From: a virus
Reading direction: 5' to 3' (one strand)
IMG/VR virus record: IMGVR_UViG_3300042691_013257
Coordinates: 1-41,346 of that record
DNA: 41,346 nt
A program made the position numbers and the translations under genes. Position 1 is the stretch's first letter. Each line of letters begins with the position of its first letter. Shown in pieces: positions 3,399-21,319 of the stretch. Below the pieces are notes generated by a model. The model was not told the DNA's origin. It did not search any database and was given only the letters and a program-made list of their open reading frames with translations.

Positions 3399-3505
3399 GC
3401 AAAGGGGTCCTCCAAGCCATCCTGATCGGCGCAATCGTCCTGCTCGTGATCGCAGGCTTTCCCGGTTGGGCCACCTTCTTCGCGATTTTGCTGGTGCTGG
3501 CATGA
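3395..3505 (+). CDS. 36-aa single-span membrane protein
   Basis: A very short gene tied to its neighbours by 4-nt ATGA overlaps at both ends, which is the main reason to believe it. After MSKG the product is almost entirely hydrophobic (two aliphatic blocks separated by a Gly-Phe-Pro-Gly-Trp turn), so it would be a single transmembrane helix or a tight hairpin. No family is recognised. The preceding gene is also a membrane protein, so the two may act together. Confidence 0.65.
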   Translation: MSKGVLQAILIGAIVLLVIAGFPGWATFFAILLVLA

Positions 3506-5268: not shown

Positions 5269-5801
5269 GCGAGATCTGGAAAGCGGTGCCTGGCTTTGAG
5301 GGCAGCTACGAGGTTTCGAACATGGGCCGAGTTCGATCCGTGGATCGTTTCGTCGACCTGATCGGACGGTGGGGCAAGCCCGAAAAGCGTCGGTACAAGG
5401 GCCGGATCAGAAAGCCGTTCACAAGTCCGTGCAATAAGTATCTTATGGTTCTTTTGTGCGTGAACAGTCGGAAGACATCGAGGACAATTCACAGCCTAGT
5501 CCTAGAAGCTTTCGTCGGCCCTTGCCCGCCCGGTGAAGAGGGGCGGCACCGCAACTGCAAGCACCATGACAACCGGCTCGAAAATCTCACCTACGGCACC
5601 CGCAAGCAGAACCGCGAGGATAGTCGTCGCGAAGGTACGCTGGCCGTTGGCGAGCGCATCGCGCAGCACAAACTGACCGCGAATGAAGTGCTGAAAATCC
5701 GGTCAACGCCGGCTGACCATCAAACCCTTGCTGACATTTACGGCGTTAGCCGCTCGCAGATCCGCCGCATCAAACGCCGGGAGAATTGGTCTCATGTGTA
5801 A
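5265..5801 (+). CDS. NUMOD4-HNH homing endonuclease
   Basis: A 178-residue free-standing homing endonuclease. NUMOD4 DNA-binding motif is at residues 4-24 (IWKAVPGFEGSYEVSNMGRVRS). The HNH region runs from His76 (HSLVLEAFVG) to NRLENLTYGT, with RHRNCKHHDNR supplying the catalytic His and Asn. The C-terminal part (LADIYGVSRSQIRRIKRRENW) is a helix-turn-helix that would guide target choice. The start overlaps the upstream stop and the end overlaps the DNA polymerase start by 8 nt, so the element sits flush against the polymerase gene. Such genes spread by cutting homologous phage genomes lacking them. Confidence 0.88.
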   Translation: MSEIWKAVPGFEGSYEVSNMGRVRSVDRFVDLIGRWGKPEKRRYKGRIRKPFTSPCNKYLMVLLCVNSRKTSRTIHSLVLEAFVGPCPPGEEGRHRNCKHHDNRLENLTYGTRKQNREDSRREGTLAVGERIAQHKLTANEVLKIRSTPADHQTLADIYGVSRSQIRRIKRRENWSHV

Positions 5802-8031
5802 GGTAATTCACGCCGACGTGGAAACGAGAAGCCCGGTCGATCTCCGCAAGCAGGGGGCCTTCGTATATTTTGAGCACCCGGAAACAACCGTCCTGATGAT
5901 GGCCTATCGTCTCGATGACCAACCGATCCGCATGTGGACCTATGACCGGCCTTGCCCGGATGACCTGCGGGCCGCTCTGGAAGGCGACGCTACAATCGTA
6001 GCGTACAACAGCCAGTTTGAGACGTTGGCGTTCGATTTGTTGGCGGATCGAAAAGGCTGGCCGCGCGTCAGCTATGACCGCTACGTGGACACGGCCGCTG
6101 CTGCGGTCGCGATGGGCCTGCCTCGCGCACTTGGCGATCTAGCGGAAGCCCTCGGGTTGCCCGTCCAAAAAGATAAAGAAGGCGGGCGCTTAATCCGGCT
6201 CTTCTCCATGCCGCGCCGCCCGCGTAAAGGCGAAGACCCAACCGGGCTGTATTGGAACGAACCCCAAGACCACCCGGAAGACTGGCAGAAATTTCTCAGC
6301 TATTGCGCGCGGGATGTAGAAACCGAGGAAGCGGCAGCCGAGCGGCTGGTCCCGCTATCCGACTTCGAGCAACAAGTCTGGCTTCTCGACCAGAAGATAA
6401 ATAGGCGCGGCGCGCGGGTAGACAGGATCAGCGCCGTCGCCGCCACGAACCTTGCCGAGAAAGCGAAGAAGGCCCTTGATCGGGAAATGCGGATCGTCAC
6501 AGGCGGCTATGTCCCGGCCTGTTCCAACCCCGGAAAGTTGATTGAATGGGTCCAAGCCCAAGGCGTTGCGCTGGACAGCGCAGCGAAAGCCGAGATCACC
6601 GATTTGCTGGAACTCGACGACCTGCCTGACCATGTTCGCCGAGCGCTGGAGATCCGACAGGAAGCCGCGAAAACGTCCGTTGCCAAGTTGACGTCGATGA
6701 TATCCCGCGCCAGCCCCGACGATCGTATCCGCGGTGGCTTCATGTATCACGGCGCGTCAACGGGGCGTTGGGTGTCGACCGGAGTTAATCTGGCGAACTT
6801 GCCCAGGCCGCGCAAGATCTTCGACGACACGAAGCCGAACCCCGAGCAACTGTTCCAGGCGTTCCGGCAGGAAGACCCCGACCTTTTGCCCTTCCTCTAC
6901 GGCCCCGAGCTTGGCCGCCCGCTGCATCTGCTCTCTGACGCGATCCGCGGCTTCATCATCGCCGCGCCGGGCCACGAGTTCGTTCAGGCCGACTATTCCA
7001 ACATCGAGGGCAACGTCATCGCGTGGTCGTCGAACGAGGAATGGAAGCTGAAGGCAATCCACGAACTGAACGCCGACCCGTCTTTGCCGGATATGTATCG
7101 GCGCACCGCCGCCGCGATCCTCGGGCTGACCACGGAAGAGGTAACGAAGAAGCATTGGGCGCGTCAGGCCGTAGGCAAGCCGGCAGAGCTTGGTCTCGCC
7201 TACGGCGGCGGTGTGATGGCCTTCGTCACCTTCGCGCGGGCCTACGGGGTGAAGCTCGACAGCATCGCCGCGAATATCATTGCGCAGGCCGATCAGGAAC
7301 GCATCGAAAAGGCGACGAAGCGCTACGAGGGGCAGGCCAAGCGCGGCCTGTCTGGAACGGTCGAACTGTCCCGCGACGCCTGGATCGCCTGCGAGATCGT
7401 CAAGCTTGGCTGGCGCACGCAGAACGCGGCCATCGCGCAGTCATGGAAGGATCTGGAGAACGCGGTGCGCGAGGCCGTTGCTTCGCCGGGGCGGATCGTG
7501 GGTGCTGCCAAGGTCGACTACCTGTTCAAGAACGGCTTCCTGTGGGCGCGGCTGCCGAGTGGCCGATGCCTCGCATACGGAACGCCGAAGCTGAAGGCTC
7601 AAGTTTGGGCCAAGGTCAAGCTGGACGACGGAACGTGGTCGGACAGCGAGGTTATGGACAAGGAAGCCGCCGAGGCCGGCGAGGTGAAGGGGACGGTCAA
7701 GATCGAGGGGGCCACCTCGGACAAGGTCACGGTTCTTGGCGTCGACAGCAAGACGAAGAAGTGGCGGCGCTATGGGCTCTACGGCGGCCTTCTCGCCGAG
7801 AACAATACCCAGGCAATCGCCCGCGACATTCTGGTCAACGGCATGTTCAAGGCGGAAGCTGCGGGCTATCCAATCATCGCGACCGTGTATGACGAAATTC
7901 TAACGGAAGTGCCGATCGGCTACGGCGACCTGGCCGACTTCGAAAGACTGATCTGCGAGCTGCCGTCGTGGGCTGCCGGGCTTCCGCTCACTGCGGGCGG
8001 TTTCCGATCCAAACGTTACAAGAAGGATTAA
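5794..8031 (+). CDS. Family A DNA polymerase with 3'-5' exonuclease
   Basis: A 745-residue phage replicative DNA polymerase of the Pol I family. The N-terminal proofreading domain shows exo I (HADVETRS, D8 and E10), YNSQFETLAFD for exo II and YCARDVETEEAA for exo III. Polymerase motif A is QADYSNIEGNVIAW (D400), motif B is RQAVGKPAELGLAYGGG (K462), and motif C is ATVYDE (D700, E701), in which Tyr replaces the usual His of VHDE. Start is ATG 5794, overlapping the HNH gene stop; upstream in-frame ATG codons would lie inside that gene. Length matches phage DNA polymerase I proteins of the DUF2800-DUF2815 replication module. Confidence 0.95.
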   Translation: MCKVIHADVETRSPVDLRKQGAFVYFEHPETTVLMMAYRLDDQPIRMWTYDRPCPDDLRAALEGDATIVAYNSQFETLAFDLLADRKGWPRVSYDRYVDTAAAAVAMGLPRALGDLAEALGLPVQKDKEGGRLIRLFSMPRRPRKGEDPTGLYWNEPQDHPEDWQKFLSYCARDVETEEAAAERLVPLSDFEQQVWLLDQKINRRGARVDRISAVAATNLAEKAKKALDREMRIVTGGYVPACSNPGKLIEWVQAQGVALDSAAKAEITDLLELDDLPDHVRRALEIRQEAAKTSVAKLTSMISRASPDDRIRGGFMYHGASTGRWVSTGVNLANLPRPRKIFDDTKPNPEQLFQAFRQEDPDLLPFLYGPELGRPLHLLSDAIRGFIIAAPGHEFVQADYSNIEGNVIAWSSNEEWKLKAIHELNADPSLPDMYRRTAAAILGLTTEEVTKKHWARQAVGKPAELGLAYGGGVMAFVTFARAYGVKLDSIAANIIAQADQERIEKATKRYEGQAKRGLSGTVELSRDAWIACEIVKLGWRTQNAAIAQSWKDLENAVREAVASPGRIVGAAKVDYLFKNGFLWARLPSGRCLAYGTPKLKAQVWAKVKLDDGTWSDSEVMDKEAAEAGEVKGTVKIEGATSDKVTVLGVDSKTKKWRRYGLYGGLLAENNTQAIARDILVNGMFKAEAAGYPIIATVYDEILTEVPIGYGDLADFERLICELPSWAAGLPLTAGGFRSKRYKKD

Positions 8032-8033
8032 TT

Positions 8034-8048
8034 TGTCTCTTTTGTCCC
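8034..8048 (+). promoter_or_regulatory. Dispersed 15-bp motif, copy 4
   Basis: TGTCTCTTTTGTCCC immediately after the polymerase stop codon, 62 nt before the nucleotidyltransferase start. Confidence 0.6.
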
Positions 8049-8110
8049 TTTACAGCACGGTACAAACGTAATACGTTTTGAACCAGACCAAGCCAACGAA
8101 GGAGACAATC

Positions 8111-8758
8111 ATGCAGACCCATAACTTCGCCGATTTCTTTGCCCGCTCCAGTGACGTGCTGCCGGAAGAACACGAACTTCTGAAAGCGCTGGAGCGACTT
8201 CCCGCTGTCAGCGACGTCGGCCCTTGGCTGGCGGGCGGGGCGCTCAGGCGCACGCTGCTGCGGCAGCCTCTCGACAGCGACTTCGATTTCTTCTTCGCCT
8301 CGGAAGGCCAGTTCAATCTGTTCTGCGAACGGATCAAGGCCGCTGGCGGCTGGCAGGTGTCGAAGAATGATCACAACACCACGTTCCGGCTGCCATCGGT
8401 CGCGCCGAAGTCAGTTGGCGAAGACGAGTTCAGCGAGTACCAGCCTGAGATCGAAGTCCAGGCGATCACGACGCAGTGGTACGACAGCCTTGAAGCGGTG
8501 CTGGACAGCTTCGACTTCACGCTCTGCCAATTCGGCTTCGACGGGGTTCGGCTGGTCTGCGGCGACTATTCACTGTGGGATCTCGGCCGCAAGCGGCTTG
8601 TGCCGCATCGCCTGACCTTCGGCACGGCCAGTATGCGCCGCCTGCTGAAATACACCAATCAGGGCTATACCATCTGTGCCGGCGGTCTGTCCGAGATCCT
8701 GCGGCAAGTGGTCGAGAAGCCCGACATCATCCAGGCTGAGACACAATACCTCGACTGA
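8111..8758 (+). CDS. CCA-adding/poly(A) polymerase-like nucleotidyltransferase
   Basis: A 215-residue protein with the catalytic signature of the Pol-beta nucleotidyltransferase superfamily: GGALRRTLL at residues 42-50 followed by LDSDFDFFF with D57 and D59, the GG...DxD pattern. A later FDFTLCQFGFDG (D135) resembles the DFTINALAYD element of CCA-adding enzymes and poly(A) polymerase head domains. I place the start at ATG 8111, preceded by AAGGAGACAATC; the upstream ATG 8078 lacks a ribosome-binding site. It could add nucleotides to tRNA or other RNA, or act as a defence/toxin-type NTase; the substrate cannot be read from sequence. A ribbon-helix-helix protein follows after 14 nt. Confidence 0.7.
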   Translation: MQTHNFADFFARSSDVLPEEHELLKALERLPAVSDVGPWLAGGALRRTLLRQPLDSDFDFFFASEGQFNLFCERIKAAGGWQVSKNDHNTTFRLPSVAPKSVGEDEFSEYQPEIEVQAITTQWYDSLEAVLDSFDFTLCQFGFDGVRLVCGDYSLWDLGRKRLVPHRLTFGTASMRRLLKYTNQGYTICAGGLSEILRQVVEKPDIIQAETQYLD

Positions 8759-8772
8759 CAACAGGAGCACCA

Positions 8773-8976
8773 ATGCCCCGCAAGAAATCCAAAGCCCCGC
8801 AATACGGGGTTCCGACCAATTCCGTCACGGTTCGCATCCCGGCCAAGCTGCACGAGGCCATCAAGGTCCGGGCAAAGAAAGACCGCACGACCAAGAGCCG
8901 CAAGATCGTCGAGCTGTTGAGCGACGCGATCGGGCCGGTTGAACCGCCGACAACGGCAGAAAGCGTGTTCGAATGA
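8773..8976 (+). CDS. Ribbon-helix-helix DNA-binding protein
   Basis: A 67-residue Arc/MetJ-type protein. The beta strand NSVTVRIPAKL, then helices HEAIKVRAKKDRTT and KSRKIVELLSDAI, follow the ribbon-helix-helix plan; the N-terminus is basic (MPRKKSK). AGGAG lies 7 nt before the ATG. It would dimerise and bind DNA in the major groove as a repressor or antitoxin. Adjacent to a nucleotidyltransferase-like gene, it could form a regulatory pair, although in known toxin-antitoxin operons the antitoxin more often comes first. The tail ends Glu-Ser-Val-Phe-Glu, matching the shared tip seen in several proteins here. Confidence 0.8.
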   Translation: MPRKKSKAPQYGVPTNSVTVRIPAKLHEAIKVRAKKDRTTKSRKIVELLSDAIGPVEPPTTAESVFE

Positions 8977-9065
8977 GCAAAACAGTCTTCGTCATCTGCC
9001 CGCTTTGCGGCAAAGCAAACGGGCATCGTTACGGCTGTAGTGGCGTCGGAAAGGTGCCGTCATGA
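8973..9065 (+). CDS. 30-aa Cys-rich mini-protein
   Basis: A gene of 31 codons fixed by ATGA overlaps with both neighbours (8973 and 9062). The product contains CPLCGKANGHRYGC, a CxxC knuckle plus a third Cys and a His, enough for a small zinc-binding knuckle. No family is recognised. Its retention in a perfectly coupled gene string argues that it is translated. Confidence 0.6.
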   Translation: MSKTVFVICPLCGKANGHRYGCSGVGKVPS

Positions 9066-9463
9066 TCATCGACGACATCCGCGCCCGCTACCCGGCTTTG
9101 TCCGGCGCGCTGTATTTCTACGAGCCGGGCCAGCCCGTCACGCTGGAAATGATCGACGCCCAGGGCAAGAGCTTTTCGTTCACGGCGCCGACCGTGGCCG
9201 AAGTGATTGCCCAGGCATTCCCTGAACTGACACCCACGGAGCCCGAGCCGACATTATCGCGCGAAGCGACGATGCGGGTCATGTCTAGTCTGGCCGCAGC
9301 GATCAGTCTGTTGGAGCGTTCGCCGAAGAAGGCAGCCGCTTCGAACAAGATGTTTGATCAGATGCTGGACGATTACCGCAAGGCCCTCGCCGCGGCCCGC
9401 GCCGAGCTGAATGAACCCACGGAGCCCGAGCCGGAAGCACCGGCGGCTTCAGTTTTTGATTAA
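9062..9463 (+). CDS. Hypothetical 133-aa protein with -SVFD tail
   Basis: The start ATG overlaps the mini-protein stop. The N-terminal half (residues 1-55) looks folded, with alternating strands and helices. An acidic Pro-Glu linker (PTEPEPTL) leads to a long helix with heptad-like spacing (about residues 68-115), and a second Pro-Glu linker ends in Ala-Ser-Val-Phe-Asp. The layout, domain-linker-helix-linker-tip, suggests an adaptor that docks by its C-terminus. No family is recognised. Confidence 0.72.
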   Translation: MIIDDIRARYPALSGALYFYEPGQPVTLEMIDAQGKSFSFTAPTVAEVIAQAFPELTPTEPEPTLSREATMRVMSSLAAAISLLERSPKKAAASNKMFDQMLDDYRKALAAARAELNEPTEPEPEAPAASVFD

Positions 9464-9473
9464 GGAGACGACC

Positions 9474-9683
9474 ATGACTGACAAACCTGATGTTGAATGC
9501 ACCGAGATCGGAGAGATCGGCAACTACTACGGCGGCCTGTCCGTCAAGCGAGAAGGCGGCAAGTGCTACTGGTCCATTGAGAATTGGGACGGTGATCACT
9601 GGCACGAGATACCCGACTCGCTCTTTGTCGAGCTGCTGAAGCACGAAGAGGATCGGCCGAAGTCGAAGTACCTCACGCGCTGA
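9474..9683 (+). CDS. Hypothetical 69-aa acidic protein
   Basis: Start ATG 9474 is chosen because TAAGGAGACGACC directly precedes it; the GGAGACGACC context recurs before other genes here. The product is small, acidic and aromatic (YYGGLSVKREGGKCYWSIENWDGDHWHEIPDSLF), typical of a compact beta-sheet fold, with a helical C-terminus. No function can be assigned. Confidence 0.75.
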   Translation: MTDKPDVECTEIGEIGNYYGGLSVKREGGKCYWSIENWDGDHWHEIPDSLFVELLKHEEDRPKSKYLTR

Positions 9684-9699
9684 TTTTCCACGCCCTCAC

Positions 9700-9714
9700 T
9701 GTATCTTCTGTATC
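9700..9714 (+). promoter_or_regulatory. Dispersed 15-bp motif, copy 5
   Basis: TGTATCTTCTGTATC in the 41-bp gap before the gene at 9725. Only 10 nt separate it from the start codon, and the ribosome-binding GGAG begins at the base after the motif. That limits where a transcript could begin if the motif is a promoter. Confidence 0.6.
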
Positions 9715-9724
9715 GGAGACGACC

Positions 9725-9961
9725 ATGAAATTCTTCACACTGATCCGCACCGGGACGCTGCAACGCGAGCGTTCCCGCATTGCTGCCAAGCGTGGCCGGC
9801 ATCTTCGCCGTGTCATGCAGTTGGACGCGCAGATCGCCGCGCTCCAAAACGAGCGCAACGAACACTTCGCGGCGGCCTCGGCCTACGTGGACGCCGAGAA
9901 CACGCTGGATCTGCAATCCGGCGCGATGATCGACGTCGAACTTCTGGAGGACGCACGATGA
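9725..9961 (+). CDS. Hypothetical 78-aa coiled-coil protein
   Basis: Start ATG preceded by GGAGACGACC. The product is basic at its N-terminal side (RERSRIAAKRGRHLRRV) and then carries hydrophobic residues at heptad-like spacing up to about residue 50, predicting a coiled coil, with an acidic C-terminus. It could be a small nucleic-acid-binding or adaptor protein; no family is recognised. Overlaps the next gene by 4 nt. Confidence 0.72.
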   Translation: MKFFTLIRTGTLQRERSRIAAKRGRHLRRVMQLDAQIAALQNERNEHFAAASAYVDAENTLDLQSGAMIDVELLEDAR

Positions 9962-10389
9962 CCTATGAAAATTACCGGGAGCCCGGTGAGTTCGGTGAAG
10001 GCGCGACTGTTCGCCAAGTCGAGCCTGTAATCGGCTGGAACGCGCACTGCGACAACCTGATGAAGATCATCTCCAAGCTTGAACTGGAGGTGTCAAATCT
10101 GAAGCAGGATCGTTACCGGCTTGGCCTGGCTATCACCGGCGGCGAGGATGCACCGGGCCTGATCGACAGCCTGCCGACGGATCAACTGGTCGAGATCGCG
10201 CGGGACAACGTCGCCCGGCACATGGGCGACATCGACAGGCTTGTGGCCCTCGAAGACGCCCTCCGCAAGATCGCCGCCTACGACGACGCGGCGGCCAATG
10301 CGTATCTGCGCGCCACCGGCAACTATCGGTGCTTCGACGAGCCCGGCGCCGTTGAGATGGCCCGTGGTGTTTTGGAGGGCGGCTCGTGA
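9958..10389 (+). CDS. Hypothetical 143-aa protein
   Basis: ATG 9958 overlaps the stop of the upstream gene. After an extended N-terminus, residues 25-50 form a likely coiled coil (NLMKIISKLELEVSNLKQ), followed by several amphipathic helices. Composition is ordinary for soluble cytoplasmic protein. No conserved catalytic pattern is visible. It overlaps the next gene through a GTGA junction. Confidence 0.72.
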   Translation: MTYENYREPGEFGEGATVRQVEPVIGWNAHCDNLMKIISKLELEVSNLKQDRYRLGLAITGGEDAPGLIDSLPTDQLVEIARDNVARHMGDIDRLVALEDALRKIAAYDDAAANAYLRATGNYRCFDEPGAVEMARGVLEGGS

Positions 10390-10637
10390 GGAACAAGTAC
10401 GCTGGCACTTGCTATCGCTGCGGCCTGCGCGTCGATCCAGGCGACGGCCATTTCGAATTGTTCCGAGGTGCCTTTCGGGTGCAGCACGCCATCTGCGCGA
10501 TCCAGTACCGGGGAACGCCCGACCCGGAACGCGATGCTGACCGCCAGCGCAAGCTGCGCCATCTCGCCGCCGGGACCGGAAAGTCTGCGCAGCGCGCCCG
10601 GCGGATCCTGCGCAAAGAGTATGGAGATCAGCCATGA
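10386..10637 (+). CDS. Zinc-knuckle-like 83-aa protein
   Basis: Start GTG 10386 overlaps the upstream stop; no better ATG exists. The N-terminus carries CYRCGLRVDPGDGHFELF, a CxxC motif, then QHAICAIQYRG supplying a His and a further Cys, so a single zinc ribbon or knuckle is likely. The C-terminal half is strongly basic (RQRKLRHLAA, RARRILRKEY), compatible with nucleic-acid binding. The family is not recognised. It overlaps the dCMP deaminase by 4 nt. Confidence 0.7.
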   Translation: MRNKYAGTCYRCGLRVDPGDGHFELFRGAFRVQHAICAIQYRGTPDPERDADRQRKLRHLAAGTGKSAQRARRILRKEYGDQP

Positions 10638-11077
10638 TTGACTGGCAGGAATACTACATGGGCTTCGCGCTGCACGCGGCGAAGAAGTCGAAGGACAGCA
10701 CACAGGTCGGCGCGGTTCTCGTCGGCCCTGATGGCGAGATCCGGTTGAGCGGATACAATGGCCCACCGCGTGGCGTGGCCGATCTGCCCGAGCGGCGGGA
10801 GCGGCCGGCGAAGTATCTCTTCGCCTCTCACGCCGAAGCAAATCTCGTCGCCTTTGCCGCCCGTGAGGGTATCCACACCAAGGGCTGCACGGTCTACGTG
10901 ACCCATCATCCATGCTCATCATGCAGTCGCTCGCTGATCCAGGCAGGGATCGTCTGCGTCGTGGTCGGCCCCGGCAAGACGTCCATGCCGGCGGATGAGT
11001 TCGAAGCGGCGGCCACCATGTTCGAAGAAGCGGGCGTGCAGACGTGGTTGCTGGACGAGGGAGGTATTGATGAGTGA
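10634..11077 (+). CDS. dCMP deaminase (zinc-dependent)
   Basis: A 147-residue deoxycytidylate deaminase, converting dCMP to dUMP for thymidylate synthesis during phage replication. The zinc ligands and catalytic Glu are clear: His66-Ala-Glu68 in SHAEANL and Cys94/Cys97 in HHPCSSC. The upstream GYNGPPRGV loop is characteristic of dCMP deaminases rather than tRNA or cytidine deaminases. Length is normal for the family. The start overlaps the zinc-knuckle gene and the end overlaps the next gene by 8 nt. It supplies the nucleotide pool side of the replication module. Confidence 0.92.
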   Translation: MIDWQEYYMGFALHAAKKSKDSTQVGAVLVGPDGEIRLSGYNGPPRGVADLPERRERPAKYLFASHAEANLVAFAAREGIHTKGCTVYVTHHPCSSCSRSLIQAGIVCVVVGPGKTSMPADEFEAAATMFEEAGVQTWLLDEGGIDE

Positions 11078-11423
11078 CCTAGTAGAACGACTTAACCGCA
11101 TCTGGCGCGAAGATCATGACCGGGGATGCCAAGGTCGAGAATATACTTGCACCTGCGGCTTTGACGAAAACGCTTTCAAGACGGCGAAGGAAGCGGTTGA
11201 CGAGATCGAACGCCTGACAGTCGGTCAGCCGATCAGTACTGCGCAGCCTGGTCAGCAGATGCTGGCGTATGAGCCGGGCTATGGCTGGCTTATCGTCTCG
11301 AAGCAGATGGACGGCTCGTTCTTGCAGAAGAGCAGCGGCAACTTTTGGATGGAGGTTCCGGTATCGGTGCAATTCACGCACTGGCTGCCATATCCGGGTT
11401 TTCTCAAGGAGAAGGCGCAATGA
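11070..11423 (+). CDS. DUF551-like 117-aa protein
   Basis: Start ATG lies inside the end of the deaminase gene (8-nt overlap). The N-terminal part contains TCTCGFDENAF with two Cys and a helix; the C-terminal part (MLAYEPGYGWLIVSK ... FTHWLPYPGF) has the HW-x-P-x-P ending typical of DUF551 domains, found in many small phage proteins of unknown role. It overlaps the next gene by 4 nt. Confidence 0.7.
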   Translation: MSDLVERLNRIWREDHDRGCQGREYTCTCGFDENAFKTAKEAVDEIERLTVGQPISTAQPGQQMLAYEPGYGWLIVSKQMDGSFLQKSSGNFWMEVPVSVQFTHWLPYPGFLKEKAQ

Positions 11424-11674
11424 CCACGCCGAGAAAGAAGCTGGACGCCGAGGTCGAAGCGATCGCGGCGAAATACGGGCTGACGGCCCACGAGGCTATC
11501 CATGTCGGGCGACGGGCCAAGCGCATGATCGTTCGGTTCGAGATCTATGCTCATGTGGTGGCGCACTACGGCAACATCGCAGCGGCGGCCCGGTATCTGG
11601 GCAAGGACAAGACGACGGTGCTGAACGGCATCAACAAACGAAAAGGGCAAGCTCAGTGTCAGATGGAAGAGTAA
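11420..11674 (+). CDS. DnaA domain IV-like DNA-binding protein
   Basis: An 84-residue protein starting at ATG 11420, which overlaps the upstream stop and follows AAGGAGAAGG. The C-terminal two thirds (VVAHYGNIAAAARYLGKDKTTVLNGINKRKG) resembles the helix-turn-helix domain IV of DnaA, where the DHTTVLHA signature contacts the DnaA box; here it reads DKTTVLNG. There is no ATPase part, so it is only a DNA reader. It may recognise an origin or compete with host DnaA (inference). The last codons overlap the following HTH gene, whose GTG start is at 11656. Confidence 0.72.
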   Translation: MTTPRKKLDAEVEAIAAKYGLTAHEAIHVGRRAKRMIVRFEIYAHVVAHYGNIAAAARYLGKDKTTVLNGINKRKGQAQCQMEE

Positions 11675-11937
11675 ACAATGGCCGTCCTGCGGGACGCGCC
11701 GGGTATGCGTTGCACAGCGTCAAGAAGCCGGCCGAGACAGCCAGCAAGGTAGTGCGGGAGTTGTTCGACATCATCGACCGCACCGACTTGCCGGCTGCTG
11801 CGGTGGCCCGTGAAACGGGATGCCATCGGGTCAGCCTGTCGCGCTGGAAGCACGGACTGTCTTCCCCGACGATCCTGGACGTCGAAGCCCTCGCGGAAGT
11901 TCTCGGGTATGAGCTGGTCCTGAAGCCGCGCGAGTGA
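11656..11937 (+). CDS. XRE-family helix-turn-helix regulator
   Basis: A 93-residue protein with a Cro/CI-type HTH: LPAAAVARETGCHRVSLSRWKHGLSSPTILDVEALAEVLGYELVL. The frame has no ATG; GTG 11656, inside the end of the DnaA-like gene, is the most plausible start, though its ribosome-binding site is weak and coupling probably drives initiation. The C-terminal EVLGYELVLKP ending is typical of small XRE regulators. It is the only candidate transcriptional repressor of this class in view and sits directly before motif copy 6, so it could bind there. Confidence 0.75.
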   Translation: MSDGRVNNGRPAGRAGYALHSVKKPAETASKVVRELFDIIDRTDLPAAAVARETGCHRVSLSRWKHGLSSPTILDVEALAEVLGYELVLKPRE

Positions 11938-11952
11938 TGTATCTTTTGTCTC
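11938..11952 (+). promoter_or_regulatory. Dispersed 15-bp motif, copy 6
   Basis: TGTATCTTTTGTCTC, identical to copy 2, starting at the base after the XRE gene stop. The next start codon is 122 nt downstream. Confidence 0.65.
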
Positions 11953-11971
11953 GTCCGTGATGGACAGACAA
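11946..11971 (+). other. Hairpin overlapping motif copy 6
   Basis: TTGTCT-C-GTCC, loop GTGAT, GGAC-AGACAA: ten base pairs with one bulged C. There is no T-run after it. The same motif-plus-inverted-repeat arrangement occurs at 2758-2795. Confidence 0.55.
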
Positions 11972-12011
11972 GACGGGGCGGGGTTATAGTGGTCATCTTC
12001 TGAAAAAGAAG

Positions 12012-12458: not shown

Positions 12459-13250
12459 ATGACCCAACATATACCGCAGCACGGTGCGGCTGGAAAGCCC
12501 CGCGCCATCGAAACCGTCTATAAGAATTACAAATTCAGGTCACGCCTAGAAGCGCGATGGGCAGTCGCCTTTGATAAACTTGGTCTTGCGTGGACCTACG
12601 AGGAAGAGGGCTTTGAACTGCCTTCCGGGCGTTATCTGCCCGACTTTTTCTTCCCCGACTTGGACACCTACGTTGAGATCAAAGGCCGCATGCCTACACC
12701 CGGTGACAACGATATGGAGCGGCTGATGGATCTGTCAGTCGCGAAGAATTGCCCGTGCTTTCTATTTGCAGGAGACCCGATCGACCTGCTGGAGAAGCCG
12801 CAGACTGAATGCTTCACCTACAGTGTTCCCGCCGGACACGCCTTCATAGGCGACCCGCACATCGTCAAATATATGCTCGACGCAGCCGGAGCGCGCGGGA
12901 ACATCGCGGCGCTCACCAAGCAAGATGCGCACGAACTTCTCACCAACATCCTGGCTCTTGCTTTCGAGATAATGAAAAATCTCAAGTGGCAGCCTAGCGA
13001 AGACGGATCAGACATAACCGATATCATCGCCACCGCGCTGCATACAACGCCAGGCGTTGCGCCGGTGAACTGGGTGGCCGCGATGCACGAAGAGGGCGAA
13101 AAAGCGCGGGAGCACATAAAAGAAGATGATCCGCATTTCACGGGCCTGATGTCCGCGATGCGTTTCGTTAGCAGTCTTGGCGGTGAGCGCATGGACGCAG
13201 CGGCCAAAGCAGCCCGGCAGGCTCGCTTCGAGTTCGGAGCCAAGCCGTGA
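12459..13250 (+). CDS. PD-(D/E)XK nuclease domain protein
   Basis: A 263-residue protein whose first 90 residues form a compact PD-(D/E)XK nuclease: YKNYKFRSRLEARWAVAFDKLGLAWTYE gives E31, GRYLPDFFFP gives D62, and YVEIKG gives E73 and K75. The same layout is found in phage and plasmid nucleases encoded beside replication proteins, where it probably fills the place of the Holliday-junction or VRR-NUC nuclease. The remaining 170 residues are helical and unassigned. Start ATG has AGGAGCG upstream. It overlaps the primase-helicase by 4 nt. Confidence 0.8.
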   Translation: MTQHIPQHGAAGKPRAIETVYKNYKFRSRLEARWAVAFDKLGLAWTYEEEGFELPSGRYLPDFFFPDLDTYVEIKGRMPTPGDNDMERLMDLSVAKNCPCFLFAGDPIDLLEKPQTECFTYSVPAGHAFIGDPHIVKYMLDAAGARGNIAALTKQDAHELLTNILALAFEIMKNLKWQPSEDGSDITDIIATALHTTPGVAPVNWVAAMHEEGEKAREHIKEDDPHFTGLMSAMRFVSSLGGERMDAAAKAARQARFEFGAKP

Positions 13251-15460
13251 AGCACGAAAAGATGGACAGCTTCATGCTGCAAGCCGACGAGGCGCACACG
13301 CGCCGTTTTCTCAATACAATCTTCAAGCACTGCGCGGGCATAGAGGGGTGGTTCACCCTTCGAGCCTTCGAGCACGCAAGGGAAGGGCGCCCGCCTGTCG
13401 TGAACAAGTGGGTGCCTTTCGACCGCAATCTGGTCAGCGAGACGGTCGCGGTCGCAACGCTGGTGGCGAACCTGACCGGGGAGGACAGGGCGGTTTTCTC
13501 GCCGCCTGTGGCGATCTTCGGCAACGAGCTGAACAAGAAGGGCGACAACCGCTTTGCCGGCGAAAGCAACGTCGTTGCTGCGCCCGCATTGGCCGCAGAA
13601 CTGGACAAGAACCCGCAAGCCGCTTTGGCCGCGCTGGTCGAGATCCTGGGCGAGCCGACAATCCTCGTCGCGTCTGGCGGCATGTGGGAGGGTCAACCGA
13701 AGCTGCACGCCTACTGGCGCCTAGGCGAGCCCGCCCGATCAAGGGAGGATCTTGCCGCCCTGAAGCACGCACGGCGCGTGGCGGCCAAGCTGGCCGGTGC
13801 AGACCACACAGGCATCACGATCTCGCACCCTATGCGAATGCCTGGGTCATGGCACACGAAGGGTGAGCCGCGGCTGTGTGAAGTGATCGGCGGCAGCCCG
13901 GCGCGTGATATCAAGCTGTCATGGGCCGTCGAGGAACTGGAACGTGCAGCAGAAGCCGCCGGGGTGGAAATCGACCGGCGCACCTCAGCGGCGCGTGAAA
14001 ACGGCGAAGGTTTCAAGACCGAAAAGGCATGGTCGCGCGAAGACCTGATGCGGGCGGCCGAGTTGATCCCGAACGACGAGCGCGTCGAGTGGGATGGCTG
14101 GTCAAACACGCTCATGGCTTTTTATGACGCTTCGCACGGTTCGGTTGACGGGCTGGATGCCGGCACCTTCTGGAGTGAGAAGAACCCCAAAGGTGACGCC
14201 GACGCCGTGGCCTACAAGTGGGACCACATTAGCCGATACCCGCCCAAAGACATTTCAGCCGGAACGCTGGTCAAGCTGGCGCGCGGGGTGGATCCTGACT
14301 TTCTGCCCGGCAAGGTGAAGCCGGAAGAATGGTTCGATCAGGACGAAGCCAGCAACCCGGAAAACGACGTACCCCCTCCGCCCGAAAAGTTGCCAAATCG
14401 TTTTGAAGAGATCCAGCAGAAAGCGGCCAAATTCGTTTTCGAGCCCTTCTATGATGCTGCGGCCACGGCGCTCACAACGGCTGCTGCGCCACTGATCAAG
14501 GGCCTTTTGGATCAAGGGGCCATGTCTGTGGTCTATGGTCAATCGAACGTTGGCAAAACCTTCCTGACGGTCGATATCGGCTATCACATCGCGACGGGGC
14601 TGTCTTATGCCGGCATGAAGACGACAAGGGGCCATGTCATCTATCTGTCCGCAGAAGGTGGCCGCAGCATTACCAAGAGGCTTTCCGCGCTCTGCATGAA
14701 ATACGGCACGACGGCGGATGTGGACTTTCATCTGCTGCGCAGCTCGATCGATCTGCGGCGGCCGGATGCTGACCTTGTGCCGTTGATCTACGCGATCAAG
14801 AGCCTTGGGGTTCCCGTGTCGCTGATCGTGGTCGATACGCTGTCCAGGGCGCTTGCAGGGGGTGATGAAAACTCGTCCGTCGATATGGGCCAGATCGTCA
14901 CCAACTTCGACAAGCTGCGAGAGCACACCAACGCGCATTTGATGGTGGTGCATCATTCCGGCAAGAACCAGGCGGCGGGCGCCCGTGGTCATTCGCTGTT
15001 GAGGGCGGCAACGGACACGGAGATTGAAGTGTCCGAAGGCGTCATCGCGGCGAAGAAACAACGCGATCTGGACAAGAACTGGTCCAGCCCGTTCACGCTC
15101 GACGTCCACACGTTGGGTGTGGATGCGGACGGTGATCCGGTCACATCGTGCTCTGTGAGGCTCATCAGCCATGCAGAGGCTACGGCCGTGCAAGTGGAGG
15201 CGTTGACCCCATCGGAAGCAATAGTCGCTGCGGCCGTGGCGGAACTGGACGCCTTTAACGAGGATGAAAACGAAGGCGTTGGCGCGTCCGAATTGATCGA
15301 TTTCTTGGCAGGCAAGCTGGAAGATATTTCGCAAAATTCCGTAAGACAATTGTTGAAAAGAGGCGTCCAGAAGGGCGCTTTGACAAAATGTCGGCGCGGA
15401 CGGTGGAAATCAGCCAATTTGCAAAGTGGTCAGACGAGTGGTCAAAGCGTTTTCTCTTAA
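13247..15460 (+). CDS. Primase-helicase (RepB-like primase plus RepA-type ATPase)
   Basis: A 737-residue replication protein. The N-terminal 230 residues resemble RepB-type/bifunctional primase domains (ILVASGGMWEGQPKLHAYWRL, then a His-rich ITISHPMRMPGSWHTKGEPR). A PriCT-like segment follows near residues 265-350. The C-terminal half is a RecA-fold helicase: Walker A GQSNVGKT (431-438), Walker B LIVVDTLSRAL (D530) and VVHHSGK (H569-H570). A winged-helix-like tail (SELIDFLAGKL ... VRQLLKRG) precedes the end, Gly-Gln-Ser-Val-Phe-Ser. The last codons encode the first two iterons of the array that follows, so the protein may bind or open that site. It would prime and unwind phage DNA for the polymerase. 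Confidence 0.88.
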   Translation: MKHEKMDSFMLQADEAHTRRFLNTIFKHCAGIEGWFTLRAFEHAREGRPPVVNKWVPFDRNLVSETVAVATLVANLTGEDRAVFSPPVAIFGNELNKKGDNRFAGESNVVAAPALAAELDKNPQAALAALVEILGEPTILVASGGMWEGQPKLHAYWRLGEPARSREDLAALKHARRVAAKLAGADHTGITISHPMRMPGSWHTKGEPRLCEVIGGSPARDIKLSWAVEELERAAEAAGVEIDRRTSAARENGEGFKTEKAWSREDLMRAAELIPNDERVEWDGWSNTLMAFYDASHGSVDGLDAGTFWSEKNPKGDADAVAYKWDHISRYPPKDISAGTLVKLARGVDPDFLPGKVKPEEWFDQDEASNPENDVPPPPEKLPNRFEEIQQKAAKFVFEPFYDAAATALTTAAAPLIKGLLDQGAMSVVYGQSNVGKTFLTVDIGYHIATGLSYAGMKTTRGHVIYLSAEGGRSITKRLSALCMKYGTTADVDFHLLRSSIDLRRPDADLVPLIYAIKSLGVPVSLIVVDTLSRALAGGDENSSVDMGQIVTNFDKLREHTNAHLMVVHHSGKNQAAGARGHSLLRAATDTEIEVSEGVIAAKKQRDLDKNWSSPFTLDVHTLGVDADGDPVTSCSVRLISHAEATAVQVEALTPSEAIVAAAVAELDAFNEDENEGVGASELIDFLAGKLEDISQNSVRQLLKRGVQKGALTKCRRGRWKSANLQSGQTSGQSVFS

Positions 15461-15572
15461 TAATCAATGGCCTAGCGAAAGTGGTCAAAAGTGGTCAAAA
15501 GTGGTCAAGCCGCTGCGGGCAAAAAGTGGTCAAGTGGTCAAACATCCTTTAGGTTTGACCACTTTGACCAAT
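15425..15572 (+). repeat. AGTGGTCA iteron array, candidate replication origin
   Basis: AGTGGTCA occurs seven times directly at 15425, 15437, 15480, 15490, 15500, 15525 and 15533. It occurs once exactly inverted at 15556 (TGACCACT) and once nearly so at 15565. The three central copies are spaced exactly 10 bp, one helical turn. The final direct and inverted copies form an arm pair (15529-15572) with a 9-nt loop. The array begins inside the 3' end of the primase-helicase gene and fills most of a 212-bp gap before the leftward operon. The position and repeat geometry fit an iteron-type origin; autoregulation of the replication operon is an alternative. Confidence 0.7.
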
Positions 15573-15672: not shown

Positions 15673-15780
15673 TCAGCGGCGGGATCTCTGCACGATCAAT
15701 TCGATCAAGCGCCCGAACATGAGGGCCGGTGCCGCGACCACGAGGACCACGGCGGCGGCAAACAAGATCAGGTAGGTCAT
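15673..15780 (-). CDS. 35-aa single-span membrane protein
   Basis: The start ATG (15780) overlaps the stop of the upstream leftward gene in an ATGA junction. The product is a hydrophobic helix of about 22 residues (MTYLILFAAAVVLVVAAP onward) followed by a basic end (VQRSRR), the layout of a small inner-membrane peptide with its positive tail in the cytoplasm. The family is not recognised. It is the last gene before the terminator. Confidence 0.65.
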   Translation of the reverse strand: MTYLILFAAAVVLVVAAPALMFGRLIELIVQRSRR

Positions 15781-16238
15781 GCCGCCTCGCTGATGCTCAG
15801 GTCGATGATCTCAGGCGTGAAGTCCCAATGCGGAACGTCAACCCAATCCCGGTCAAGGTCTGTGAAGACATAGCGGACCCGGCGCGAGCCATCAGGGGCA
15901 ACGTCAAAGCGAACGTTGCGAATGTGGTGATAGCGGCCTTCCTGAAAGCCTGTCTCACGGCCACGCATTGCGGCCATGTACTGAAAGGCTCGCATCGCTT
16001 GCCAATCCTTATCGCCCGGCGTCCGTTCAGGGGTGAACGTCGAATGCGCTTTGCGGATCGCGGCGAAGGTCCGGCCTTTCGGCGGATCCACCCGCAACGG
16101 GTCAAGGCCATGCTCCCGCAGGAACTGCGACGCGCAATAAGCTTCATTGGGCTTGCTTGGCAAATGCCACTCGCCTTTCTTGTTCTGAACAGCGCCAGCG
16201 GCTTCACAAGGGGCGACGAAATCGAAATAGGCTTGCAT
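15777..16238 (-). CDS. Hypothetical 153-aa protein, leftward operon
   Basis: The start is set at ATG 16238, preceded on the minus strand by CCGGGAG with 8 nt spacing; an in-frame ATG at 16292 would run through the intergenic sequence and lacks this site. The product is soluble, with many aromatic and charged residues (EWHLPSKPNEAYCASQFLREHGL, RKAHSTFTPE, RYHHIRNVRFDV) and an acidic C-terminus (DLDRDWVDVPHWDF). No family is recognised. It is coupled by ATGA to the membrane peptide downstream. Confidence 0.72.
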   Translation of the reverse strand: MQAYFDFVAPCEAAGAVQNKKGEWHLPSKPNEAYCASQFLREHGLDPLRVDPPKGRTFAAIRKAHSTFTPERTPGDKDWQAMRAFQYMAAMRGRETGFQEGRYHHIRNVRFDVAPDGSRRVRYVFTDLDRDWVDVPHWDFTPEIIDLSISEAA

Positions 16239-16260
16239 GTTGAAAACTCCCGGTGACGGC

Positions 16261-16338
16261 TCAAAGGCCAATGAGGACGAAAGACAGGCCAACGATAAAC
16301 ACGGCCATGGCTGCGGCGGATGCGAGGGTGTGGATCAT
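16261..16338 (-). CDS. 25-aa membrane peptide
   Basis: A gene of 26 codons accepted because its ATG (16338) overlaps the stop of the upstream gene (ATGA) and the product is a clean hydrophobic helix (about residues 5-25) with no charged residue after His3. It is one of two tiny membrane proteins in this operon. Function is unknown; interference with a host membrane complex is a possibility that the sequence alone cannot test. Confidence 0.5.
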   Translation of the reverse strand: MIHTLASAAAMAVFIVGLSFVLIGL

Positions 16339-16826
16339 GCGCCGTCCACCGCGATTGCGTACCCGCCACAGTGATCCGGTTCGCCGTTGCGCGTGCCATG
16401 GGCTTCCGGCGTGCCGTTCGGCCACAGAACGTTTCCGAGCGAATAGCCGATCTGGAATGACTTTGAGTAACCGCAACCGCCCATGACGATCTCGTCGTCC
16501 TTGGACAGACGGAAACCGACGAGTGCTGCGACCTGTCGCGTGATGTTGCGAATGTAGGTGCGACCTTCAGGCGATACGGCGGGAATGAAAACCTTGTATC
16601 GGGCAGATCCGCTGTTGCGGTTGTAGTGGGTGCATACGGCGGTCAGGGTGGATCCGACCTTCACGATGTCGAGCAATTCGGCGCGGCGGTACTCGTGCAA
16701 GGCAGTTTCGGCTTCCTTGCCGAACAAGGCGACACATTCGCCCGCTGCAATGGCGCGGTCCCAAATGTCGGAATAGGCGTAAACGTTGCCATCATTGAAG
16801 CGGACGGCTTTGGGGTTCTTGGTCAT
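16335..16826 (-). CDS. Conserved phage hypothetical protein, 163 aa
   Basis: The start ATG 16826 has AAAGGA 10 nt upstream on the minus strand. The C-terminal half contains IVMGGCGYSKSFQIGYSLGNVLWPNGTPEAHG, and then DHCGGYAIAV. I recognise this Gly-Cys-Gly ... Leu-Trp-Pro ... His-Cys-Gly-Gly-Tyr pattern from uncharacterised phage and plasmid proteins, without a known activity. The N-terminal half (SDIWDRAIAAGECVALFGKEAETALHEY) is helical. A motif copy lies 16 bp upstream of the start, on the same strand. Confidence 0.75.
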   Translation of the reverse strand: MTKNPKAVRFNDGNVYAYSDIWDRAIAAGECVALFGKEAETALHEYRRAELLDIVKVGSTLTAVCTHYNRNSGSARYKVFIPAVSPEGRTYIRNITRQVAALVGFRLSKDDEIVMGGCGYSKSFQIGYSLGNVLWPNGTPEAHGTRNGEPDHCGGYAIAVDGA

Positions 16827-16842
16827 TTGGGTTGGTCCTTTC

Positions 16843-16857
16843 GAGACAAACGAGACA
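16843..16857 (-). promoter_or_regulatory. Dispersed motif, reversed copy 7
   Basis: Minus strand TGTCTCGTTTGTCTC, in the 42-bp gap before the leftward gene starting at 16826. Its orientation follows the leftward gene. Confidence 0.65.
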
Positions 16858-16868
16858 GTGAGGGCAAA

Positions 16869-17093
16869 TCAGGCGGAAAAGGCGTATTCGGTGCCGTTGC
16901 GGGCAAGGTTGGCGGCAAAGGCGTCACGGTGCGCCACGTCGTTGAACGACCATTCGTCAAGATCGCCTGTTTCGCCGATGAATTGCACGTTCAAGCCAGC
17001 GGCGCGATTGCGGTAAAAGGCGCGATCCATCAGCAGCACGATATGGGGTGACAGCTTGTCGCGGTTGGGTTTGTGGGTGGTATCGAAGGTCAT
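16869..17093 (-). CDS. Hypothetical 74-aa protein, leftward operon
   Basis: Start ATG 17093 has TTGGAG with 8 nt spacing on the minus strand. The product (DRAFYRNRAAGLNVQFIGETGDLDEWSFNDVAHRDAFAANLARNG) has a beta-strand then helix layout typical of tiny regulatory or inhibitor proteins. No family is recognised. It is separated from neighbours by short gaps that each hold a motif copy. Confidence 0.7.
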   Translation of the reverse strand: MTFDTTHKPNRDKLSPHIVLLMDRAFYRNRAAGLNVQFIGETGDLDEWSFNDVAHRDAFAANLARNGTEYAFSA

Positions 17094-17128
17094 GGTGATT
17101 GCTCCAATCATGCAAGGGGTGAGTGTGG

Positions 17129-17143
17129 TGGACAAACGAGACA
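17129..17143 (-). promoter_or_regulatory. Dispersed motif, reversed copy 8
   Basis: Minus strand TGTCTCGTTTGTCCA, 35 bp upstream of the leftward start at 17093, in the 62-bp gap. Confidence 0.6.
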
Positions 17144-17155
17144 GTGCGGGCGTGG

Positions 17156-17374
17156 TCAGGCGGGAAGCACTCGGGCAGGATGCCACCGCATATCGAAGTT
17201 CGGGCCTGTCGATCCATATCCGGTCAAAACCTCATTGGCCTTGGCCGTTGCGAGGTAAAGCGGTTTCTTGAACGGATTGGCCGCATAGAAGGCGGCGAGG
17301 GCTTCATCGCGTGACGGGAAGGGACCAACGATGGTCTTGCCGCGCTTGGCCCAGAACTGAGGTTGATCGGTCAT
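17156..17374 (-). CDS. Hypothetical 72-aa protein, first gene of leftward operon
   Basis: Start ATG 17374 is preceded on the minus strand by GGAGACGACCA, the same ribosome-binding context used by several rightward genes; this overrides a longer in-frame extension. The product contains FWAKRGKTIVGPFPSRDEALAAFYAANPFKKPLYL and FDMRWHPARVLPA, suggesting a small alpha/beta fold. No family is recognised. It would be the first gene read from the divergent control region. Confidence 0.72.
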   Translation of the reverse strand: MTDQPQFWAKRGKTIVGPFPSRDEALAAFYAANPFKKPLYLATAKANEVLTGYGSTGPNFDMRWHPARVLPA

Positions 17375-17442
17375 TGGTCGTCTCCGGTGCGGGTTGAAAT
17401 GTCTTACAAGTGCAAAATGTCTTACGTTGTATCGGAAGTCAA

Positions 17443-17457
17443 GAGACAAAAACGACA
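17443..17457 (-). promoter_or_regulatory. Dispersed motif, reversed copy 9
   Basis: Minus strand TGTCGTTTTTGTCTC, directly followed by TTGACT (17437-17442), a -35-like hexamer. A 17-bp spacer then leads to CATTTT, a weak -10. Confidence 0.55.
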
Positions 17458-17465
17458 AAGATTGC

Positions 17466-17488
17466 AATTAACCAGATTTAGGTTAATT
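17466..17488. promoter_or_regulatory. Shared palindromic operator, copy A
   Basis: AATTAACC, seven bases, GGTTAATT: perfect 8-bp arms. The same arms and spacer length occur at 28487-28509, and TTGCA lies just left of both. It is a likely binding site for a dimeric regulator. Confidence 0.7.
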
Positions 17489-17549
17489 TGCGGAAACTGT
17501 TGGCAACGGCTAACATGTTATATCGTAACATCGATACGGAGGTTCGGCC

Positions 17550-18026
17550 TTGCCGTATGTTTCGGGACGGTTCACGCCAGGCGAAAGGGCATTTATTCAC
17601 CACATGGGCGAAACCAATGATCCACACATCGCCGCGATGAAAGCGGGGTACAAGCAACCCGCCGTCGCTGCGAACAAACTGATGAAGCGGCCTGAGGTCG
17701 CAGAAGCGTCCAGGGAGGCCGCTGCAAGGTTCCTGCATGAGAAAGCGGGGGCCATTGGTGTGATGGTAGCAACCCGCATCGCGCTAGACACCACATTGCC
17801 GGCAAACACGCAGCTACGCGCCGCCACTGAGCTGATGAAAGCCTCAGGAATGTACGTAAACGACGGCAACGCGCCGATGAAAGAGCCGCACGAAATGACG
17901 GCAACGGAGCTGCGAGAGCACGCCTCAAAGCTGGAACGCCAGCGTGACGCGATGCTGAAGGCACTGAGCGAACAAGCCACCGTGATCGAGGGCGAAACGC
18001 CGCAATCAGGCAGTGCTTTTGACTGA
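17550..18026 (+). CDS. terS: Terminase small subunit
   Basis: A 158-residue protein starting at TTG 17550, with ACGGAGG and 7 nt spacing. The N-terminal region (FTPGERAFIHHMGETNDPHIAAMKAGYKQPAVAANKLMKRPEV) is the DNA-binding HTH typical of small terminase subunits, including the A-x-x-AGY and rP-x-V ending. A helical oligomerisation region and a charged coiled coil (LREHASKLERQRDAMLKAL) follow. It would recognise the packaging site and hand DNA to TerL. TerL is unusually far away, almost 6 kb downstream. The end is Gly-Ser-Ala-Phe-Asp. Confidence 0.8.
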   Translation: MPYVSGRFTPGERAFIHHMGETNDPHIAAMKAGYKQPAVAANKLMKRPEVAEASREAAARFLHEKAGAIGVMVATRIALDTTLPANTQLRAATELMKASGMYVNDGNAPMKEPHEMTATELREHASKLERQRDAMLKALSEQATVIEGETPQSGSAFD

Positions 18027-20182: not shown

Positions 20183-21319
20183 TTGAGTGACCCCTCGAAA
20201 TACACCCGCGATTATTCCTTTACCGACTACCAGGCCAGCAACCCCTCGGCCCCACTGCCGGGCTTGCAGGTCGATGCCGAGCTGGAGGACGTCGAGGCGT
20301 CGATCGGCGAGATCGTCGATGCGATCAAGAACGTGCGCCGGTCTGACGGTGCGCTGAAGAACGAGATCGTGACGTTGGATAGCCTGGACGCGACTGTCCG
20401 GGCCGGCGTGGGCTCCGGCGCATTGGCTTCAGCCGAGGCCGCTGCTGCGTCTGCTGATGCCGCATCGGACAGCGCGGTCGCCGCAGCCGCATCAGCCACG
20501 GCAGCTTCCGGGTCTGCAACGGCTGCCTCTGGCTACGCCAGCAACGCGCTGACATCGCGGAACGAGGCCGACGGTTTTGCAGACGACGCAGCGGCCGCTG
20601 CCAGCCTCTCGGCAACGGCCCGCGACTACGCCTATCAGTGGTCAAGCGCGGCATCCGGCGTGGACGTCAACGACGGCGTGAACCCGGTCAACAAATCGGC
20701 CTACCATTGGGCGCAGGTCGCGCTGGCGGCGGCGGCCGGTTCTGTTGCCGATGGCTCGATCACAACGGTGAAGCTGGCCGACAACTCGGTTACATCGGCC
20801 AAGATCGTAAACGGTACGATCGTTACGGCTGATCTTGCGGACGGGTCCGTGACGTCGGCGAAGATCGTCGACGGTACGATCGCGACGGGCGACATCGCGG
20901 ACGGAGCGATAACTTCAGCCAAGATCGCGGACGGCACGGTCGCCAACGCGGACTTGGCAAACATGACACAGGCGACCATCAAGGGCCGCGCGTCCGGCGC
21001 AGGAACAGGCGCTCCTACTGACCTTGACGCAACTGCCGTGTATACGATCGTTGCCGGTCTGGTCGCGCCGCTGCCAAAGACGGCGGCTGGCGTTGGCCAG
21101 ATCTTCGACTTCAACTCAATTTCGACTGGGTCTGCCGCGGCATTGCCTGCGGGTGGCACATGGTTTTACTCCATCCAAAGGCTCAACAATTCAACCGCGC
21201 AATGGCAAGTTCCTAGTGGAGATGTCGGCGGTGCAACCGGTATAGCCTCTGGCGGCACGACAATCTTCACCGGCGCAGCAAACGTAAAATTTACTGGTTT
21301 TGCCATAAGGATATCGTAA
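20183..21319 (+). CDS. Tail fibre / receptor-binding protein
   Basis: A 378-residue protein starting at TTG 20183 with CCGGAG upstream. The N-terminal 65 residues (YSFTDYQASNPSAPLPGLQVDAELEDVEASIGEIVDAI) form a tail-attachment region known from phage fibres. Residues 75-155 are Ala/Ser-rich with coiled-coil character. Residues 190-255 hold tandem repeats of about 20 residues (SVTSAKIVDGTI, LADGSVTSAKI, IADGAITSAKI) typical of trimeric beta-structured shafts. The C-terminal 110 residues would form the tip. It is followed with no gap by an SGNH hydrolase, so fibre and enzyme may work together in host recognition. Confidence 0.82.
   Translation: MSDPSKYTRDYSFTDYQASNPSAPLPGLQVDAELEDVEASIGEIVDAIKNVRRSDGALKNEIVTLDSLDATVRAGVGSGALASAEAAAASADAASDSAVAAAASATAASGSATAASGYASNALTSRNEADGFADDAAAAASLSATARDYAYQWSSAASGVDVNDGVNPVNKSAYHWAQVALAAAAGSVADGSITTVKLADNSVTSAKIVNGTIVTADLADGSVTSAKIVDGTIATGDIADGAITSAKIADGTVANADLANMTQATIKGRASGAGTGAPTDLDATAVYTIVAGLVAPLPKTAAGVGQIFDFNSISTGSAAALPAGGTWFYSIQRLNNSTAQWQVPSGDVGGATGIASGGTTIFTGAANVKFTGFAIRIS

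Follow-up and report, generated by a model that had tools for sequence, protein, structure and literature searches.

The six small genes that run leftward at positions 15673-17374 of the window, by which we mean the whole 41,346-bp IMG/VR virus record analysed here, probably constitute an accessory operon, in which exchangeable genes dedicated to host takeover or counter-defence occupy a fixed antisense slot in temperate phages of the Hyphomicrobiales. The same slot was found in 17 phages (the window and 16 others), being composed of a rightward helicase-primase gene, 3-11 small genes on the opposite strand and a rightward gene resembling a terminase small subunit (TerS), with a width of 1.4-3.3 kb from helicase-primase to TerS. 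Across these 17 slots position, direction and promoter are conserved, whereas the gene content is variable, and the slot is of more interest than the six genes which the window itself carries.

The six leftward ORFs delimited by the initial annotation are real, as all have an ATG start and open frames, and a custom-written codon-usage gene caller, trained on the long ORFs of the window and run without annotation, returned exactly the same six ORFs and zero genes on the + strand between the helicase and the terminase. The possibility of spurious ORFs was rejected on the basis of codon usage, a pN/pS of 0.12 and the existence of homologues. In the order of transcription the genes encode, all on the − strand, a 72-aa protein (17156-17374), a 74-aa protein (16869-17093), a 163-aa protein (16335-16826), a hydrophobic microprotein of 25 aa (16261-16338, with an ATGA overlap), a 153-aa protein (15777-16238) and a distal microprotein of 35 aa with one transmembrane segment (15673-15780, with an ATGA overlap with the preceding gene). 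The five internal junctions thus comprise two 4-nt ATGA overlaps, a 22-nt gap and two longer gaps of 42 and 62 nt.

On the left, the block is flanked by the helicase-primase gene (13247-15460, +; phrog_906, E 1.7e-46, AAA_25 and PriCT_2), a flank present in all 17 slots. An iteron-like array at 15425-15565, with seven copies of AGTGGTCAAA/G and one inverted copy, is located between the end of the helicase gene and the terminator of the block and is a candidate replication origin; relatives have short repeats at the same position which differ from the iterons of the window, as exemplified by the many copies of ATCTCCGCC in Rhizobium phage RHph_N65. The terminator that had been proposed at one end of the block corresponds to a hairpin with six G-C pairs and a T run at 15666-15650 (−), which resembles an intrinsic terminator. 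The terminator scan proves nothing by itself, since it gave 12 sites per 7 kb against 8.8 expected; by eye, a hairpin with a T run is also seen 3' of the distal gene in several relatives. At the other end, the AT-rich divergent region is present as described (17375-17549) and is followed by the TerS-like gene (17550-18026, +; start at 17604 according to the gene caller), which matches phrog_641 at an E-value of only 0.003 and is also recognized by an HMM that we derived from the TerS-like genes of six of the phages themselves. The single further leftward gene noted near 40.3 kb has an open frame (40259-40525, 88 aa), but the gene caller favours a gene on the + strand at that place. Elsewhere in the window, a 103-aa protein encoded at 2779-3090 (+) has a GapR-like DNA-binding domain (PF10073, E 5.9e-26) and is conserved in relatives, being a phage-borne GapR, and a tail-fibre-like gene contains three 60-nt tandem repeats (20757-20936).

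Searches of Pfam and PHROGs gave no named function for any of the six block proteins, and neither did NCBIfam for five of them (all except the 25-aa one). PADLOC, whose models describe defence rather than anti-defence proteins, gave zero matches for the four proteins larger than the 25- and 35-aa ones. The 163-aa protein belongs to phrog_12365 (E 2.8e-14), a family of unknown function, its residues 83-159 aligning to positions 79-156 of the 160 in the profile while the N-terminal half is uncovered. It has tblastn matches in 20 phage records, and at least 79 viral loci are listed; a direct scan of viral contigs with this protein alone gave zero matches. The predicted structure has a pLDDT of 95, yet the best Foldseek E-value is 0.15 and the VIA-align Z scores, at most 3.6, are to reverse transcriptases; since these are far below a trustworthy match we draw no function from the structure, and the modelled protein may still have a known fold. 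For the 153-aa protein no relative was found in Pfam, PHROGs, NCBIfam, PADLOC, by tblastn in phages or in eight relatives of the window, and the same holds for the 74-aa protein in Pfam, PHROGs, NCBIfam, PADLOC and the eight relatives, in which the 163-aa protein has zero matches as well.

Relatives were found by scans with the large terminase subunit (TerL) and the DNA polymerase, and their core proteins are around 30-84% identical. Wider scans added IMG/VR phages and bacterial contigs, the latter from Nitratireductor soli (217 kb), Bosea lathyri (293 kb) and Pseudovibrio hongkongensis (746 kb), which likely carry prophages. Among the loci from these wider scans, 36 were listed as having at least one flank match; those with a single flank gene, or remote ones (such as L059, L074, L118, L119, L169, L172 and L174), were left out. 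The slot was examined in 19 records, corresponding to the 17 tight slots plus G022 and G013. Genes on the strand of the flanks are rare within the tight slots, with at most one per slot and a single short called ORF in each of G002, G007 and G012. The slot of G022 is mixed and 6 kb long, containing two genes on the strand of the flanks, and its helicase match is weak, while in G013 (Pseudovibrio) the opposite-strand block adjoins TerS and the helicase is located elsewhere. In L117 and L120, which are remote relatives by their helicase, only same-strand genes follow it. The 17 slots are not 17 independent observations, because several of the phages are close, including the pairs G006/G011 and G003/G016. 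The deposited GenBank annotation of the cultured phage RHph_N65 (MN988536.1), which is independent of our own, has the same slot and direction, with a helicase/primase at 32804-34927 (+), four leftward hypotheticals at 35308-36861 and a rightward gene at 37006. RHph_N65 and the window have in common the slot, its orientation and the promoter type, whereas the block genes differ. Among open-licence papers we found none on this slot, which is weak evidence of absence.

As a group, these phages are temperate and have Hyphomicrobiales (rhizobia and related bacteria) as hosts. Of the 17 records searched, 15 have a tyrosine integrase, two records being whole bacterial genomes. No integrase was detected among the 30 window ORFs scanned, and full-length relatives exceed the window by several kb. 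Microcystis phage Mae-Yong1326-1 (L292, OP028995.1, region 1-12000; TerL 45%) was considered as a further slot and not counted, as the gene caller favours the opposite strand at this place: at 871-8143 the deposited cobS/cobT lie opposite a RecA-family ATPase, codon usage supports the other strand, and the deposited annotation may merit a check.

The comparison of gene content that had been suggested for this locus gave the opposite of a block fixed and identical in relatives. In tblastn searches the window block proteins had zero matches in eight relatives, and in the wider set the 72-aa protein is the sole one with a homologue: it has a partner 81-84% identical among the block proteins of G011, against which its gene evolves at a pN/pS of 0.12, and a second relative in L288. 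The 101 block proteins (from the 17 phages, G013 and G022) fall into 83 clusters, 73 of which are singletons. When pairs of the 17 phages are compared (the proteins from G013 and G022 being clustered but excluded from the pairs), a block family is common to 27 of 136 pairs, against 121 pairs with a matching helicase-primase and 131 with a matching TerS. A structural role for the block was rejected, given fixed flanks and variable content. The description of these genes as oppositely oriented and of a dispensable, accessory type is thus borne out in part, by turnover within a conserved slot. The block of G001 contains a DUF3560 protein adjoining a DNA-methyltransferase-like protein, with a related pair in G013, and that of G002 a DUF7249 protein; the pair, as judged from its domains, fits accessory or anti-host roles. 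The number of singletons and the absence of named functions among the block genes of the window would also be compatible with neutral drift, in which small ORFs without a shared role pile up at a site that tolerates them between two transcription units. We regard this as very unlikely, as it sits badly with the strict strand bias in 17 slots, the conserved promoter and distal microprotein, the pN/pS of 0.12 (one gene) and a family that recurs in six blocks and in RHph_N65.

The DNA between the block genes has a different behaviour from the genes themselves. Over the 17 slots and RHph_N65, within-phage repeats cover 464 of 3,692 internal gap bases (12.6%) versus 200 of 27,160 coding bases (0.7%), the gap repeats being around 30-60 nt long and differing from phage to phage. 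In the window, a 36-nt stretch is common to the 42- and 62-nt gaps (83%), and one of these resembles a gap in G006 (90% over 29 nt). In related phages such repeats stand before genes of different families, as seen in G003/G016 and in G017/RHph_N65. At the DNA level, the promoter of G003 is 81% identical to that of G016 over 221 nt, two of their gaps are 79% and 86% identical and the distal end is 77% identical, but the genes enclosed by the common gaps are unrelated. In G006 and G011 a common gap is followed by a common leader of around 29 codons fused to different bodies, the body in G011 being the homologue of the window gene at 17156-17374. Because gap DNA is repeated within phages and common between phages around unrelated genes, cassette-like exchange of the genes seems to take place. 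From these sequences we infer that exchange may proceed by homologous recombination at the gaps; the gap similarity could instead result from recent ancestry.

A further recurrent feature is the last gene. In 14 of the 17 phages it encodes a protein of 35-46 aa with one hydrophobic helix followed by P-x(2,5)-G, mostly with an ATGA overlap, and the 35-aa gene of the window is a member of this recurrent one-helix type; in G001, G009 and G017 the distal position is taken by a different short hydrophobic ORF. The strict P..GR form occurs six times on the block strand and zero times on the opposite strand, against 0.06 per set in shuffles. The constraint is only moderate, with a pN/pS around 0.5 in two pairs. 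By eye, we also read a hydrophobic micro-ORF at the distal end in RHph_N65; it is of the G017 kind and lacks annotation in GenBank. Indeed, this microprotein is easily overlooked, being missed by gene finders, including our own caller in several relatives.

The predicted promoter of the block (17419-17459, −) consists of tandem TTTGTC half-sites, a TTGACT box, a 17-nt spacer and CATTTT. In 17 of 17 phages TTGAC lies 55-83 nt upstream of the start of the first block gene, usually with a TACAWW-like hexamer 17-18 nt after it, and in most phages tandem TTTGTC-like half-sites precede it. The −10 hexamer of the window is poor, and the best promoter score of the window is matched by 61% of shuffles (p 0.61). 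Single block promoters are often no better than shuffles, so that the weight lies in the recurrence, some of the promoters being homologous DNA. Searching six genomes for tandem half-sites with TTGAC on both strands gave one site each in the window, G001 and G007, in all cases the block promoter, two sites in G002 (one at the block), one elsewhere in G006 and none in G003; since the pattern was built from these promoters, this denotes rarity and not independence.

In the four relatives examined an HTH_3/HTH_31 protein adjoins the integrase, and in all four a palindrome of TGTC half-sites is located in the gap upstream of its gene. We infer that this integrase-adjacent protein could control the block. 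Neither such a palindrome nor a repressor gene was detected in the window, from which the integrase/repressor end may be missing. The sequence similarity between the promoter half-sites and the palindromes near the repressor gene suggests silencing in lysogeny, and this speaks against a lysogenic-conversion (moron) operon, one expressed by the prophage from its own promoter and serving the lysogen, for instance through superinfection exclusion by small membrane proteins. Such an operon would be in line with temperate relatives, with recurrent membrane microproteins and with a unit that is equipped with a sigma-70-like promoter and a terminator of its own and is oriented opposite to the lytic genes; we nevertheless consider it unlikely.

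The initial annotation had also placed a control motif in each gap of the block, which is too strong, as three of the five internal junctions, including the 22-nt gap, are without it. The motif is a direct repeat with period 9, TGTMTC-N3-TGTMTC. We have scored it with a position weight matrix trained on 11 sites outside the block, with 8034 and 19332 chosen by eye. The copy before the gene that starts at 16826 is strong (TGTCTCGTTTGTCTC, 16843-16857, −, 23.7 bits, in the 42-nt gap), being the strongest of the block and outside the training set. Those before 17093 and 17374 hold up less well: the former (TGTCTCGTTTGTCCA, 17129-17143, −, 14.9 bits, in the 62-nt gap) is degenerate in its second half, and the latter (13.5 bits) is degenerate and adjoins the −35 box TTGACT. 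Overall, 22 sites, including the 11 used for training, reach at least 12 bits, whereas 1.1 are expected from 30 first-order Markov sequences. Five probably meaningless hits within coding sequence score 13.3-16.2 bits, so that the score alone gives the two weak copies no significance; their support comes from the −35 box, conserved in relatives, which one of them adjoins, and from the 36-nt repeat in which the other lies.

All 14 sites of at least 17 bits are oriented with local transcription, and most are in gaps. The gap copies lie mostly 8-156 nt from the next called start, with a few copies farther off or within coding sequence, and some are just 8-34 nt upstream of a start, which is too close for a promoter. 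Rightward genes have copies at 2758, 9700, 11938, 18482, 20134, 25604, 28460 and 41226 (+), several of which have an inverted half-site after them; the copy at 25604 overlaps a start codon. The strict motif is nearly missing from most relatives, which counts against a shared sequence; a near-identical copy occurs in one gap of G006 and another at the promoter of G019. A count of exact period-9 repeats did not separate the window from its relatives, probably because codon periodicity dominates it. Phage-specific gap motifs are clear in the window and in G003, where GTTGATTNNGTWGAT occurs in 9 gaps versus 0.19 expected, and weaker in G001, G002, G006 and G007. G003 (L019-L021) has a period-9 motif of its own, GTTGAT-N3-GTWGAT, in many cases followed downstream by an ATCAAC half-site in inverted orientation, at record positions 2019, 9365, 10657, 27328, 32040, 38477 and 44097(−).

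This distribution recalls two systems of mycobacteriophages. According to the account in PMC3203893, the SAS/ESAS of Cluster K are short asymmetric repeats, mostly in one orientation and directly before gene starts, often accompanying genes whose families differ from phage to phage. The window motif is likewise oriented, a likeness at the level of sequence only, and most of its gap copies lie 8-156 nt from the next called start; on that account a single SAS is found cluster-wide, whereas here the dispersed motif differs by phage and longer gap repeats accompany the exchange of genes in one antisense slot. The Cluster A stoperators (e.g. those of L5), as far as PMC6550527 describes them, are many asymmetric sites spread over the genome and oriented with transcription, some at the early promoter, with a consensus that varies between phages. 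The window motif resembles them in its many asymmetric sites and in the codirectionality of the strongest 14, whereas it is a period-9 direct repeat known here from sequence alone. It is possible, if on balance somewhat improbable, that the motif, rather than being a set of promoters, is of the stoperator type or a start-associated element, through which a phage protein blocks elongation or acts at the transcript, the block simply carrying its share. The orientation of the strong sites, their location mostly in gaps and partly 8-34 nt from a start, the overlap with one start codon and the different gap motifs of other phages, such as that of G003, all suit this mechanism; the copies at 17457, 18482 and 19332, which adjoin TTGAC boxes, look instead like operators at promoters. 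Such a reading is compatible with an accessory operon, from which it differs mainly in mechanism.

Returning to the accessory operon as the preferred explanation, host RNA polymerase would read it from the sigma-70-type promoter at an early stage of the infection. The operon would be silenced in the prophage by a DNA-binding regulator of the phage, acting via the TTTGTC/TGTMTC half-sites at the −35 box, for which the integrase-adjacent HTH repressor of relatives is the likeliest candidate. New genes would enter via homologous recombination between the repeated gaps, and the products would target the host or its defences. A more elaborate form is rather doubtful: a dedicated exchange platform with a repressor-controlled antisense promoter and interchangeable anti-host genes, in which the phage-specific gap repeats provide both control sites and homology for swapping, and the closing gene encodes an ancient membrane microprotein of around 35 aa as the fixed partner or effector of the variable genes. 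In its behaviour the block is comparable to a variable accessory hotspot. The P2/P4-like hotspots of temperate phages, as presented in PMC9122126, carry anti-phage systems, and the likeness lies in exchangeable genes at a fixed locus with conserved flanks, whereas here the genes are unnamed and are accompanied by one antisense promoter, repeated gaps and a recurrent distal microprotein.

The slot thus looks like an exchangeable toolbox, because different small genes appear to be swapped between repeated spacers at a fixed place which usually ends in a tiny membrane protein, and its aim is probably the host. It shows gaps that are conserved while the genes change. For these phages, the interval between helicase-primase and terminase, on the opposite strand, is a predictable address for fast-changing small genes, and it supplies a list of candidate anti-host or anti-defence genes that can be tested at once.
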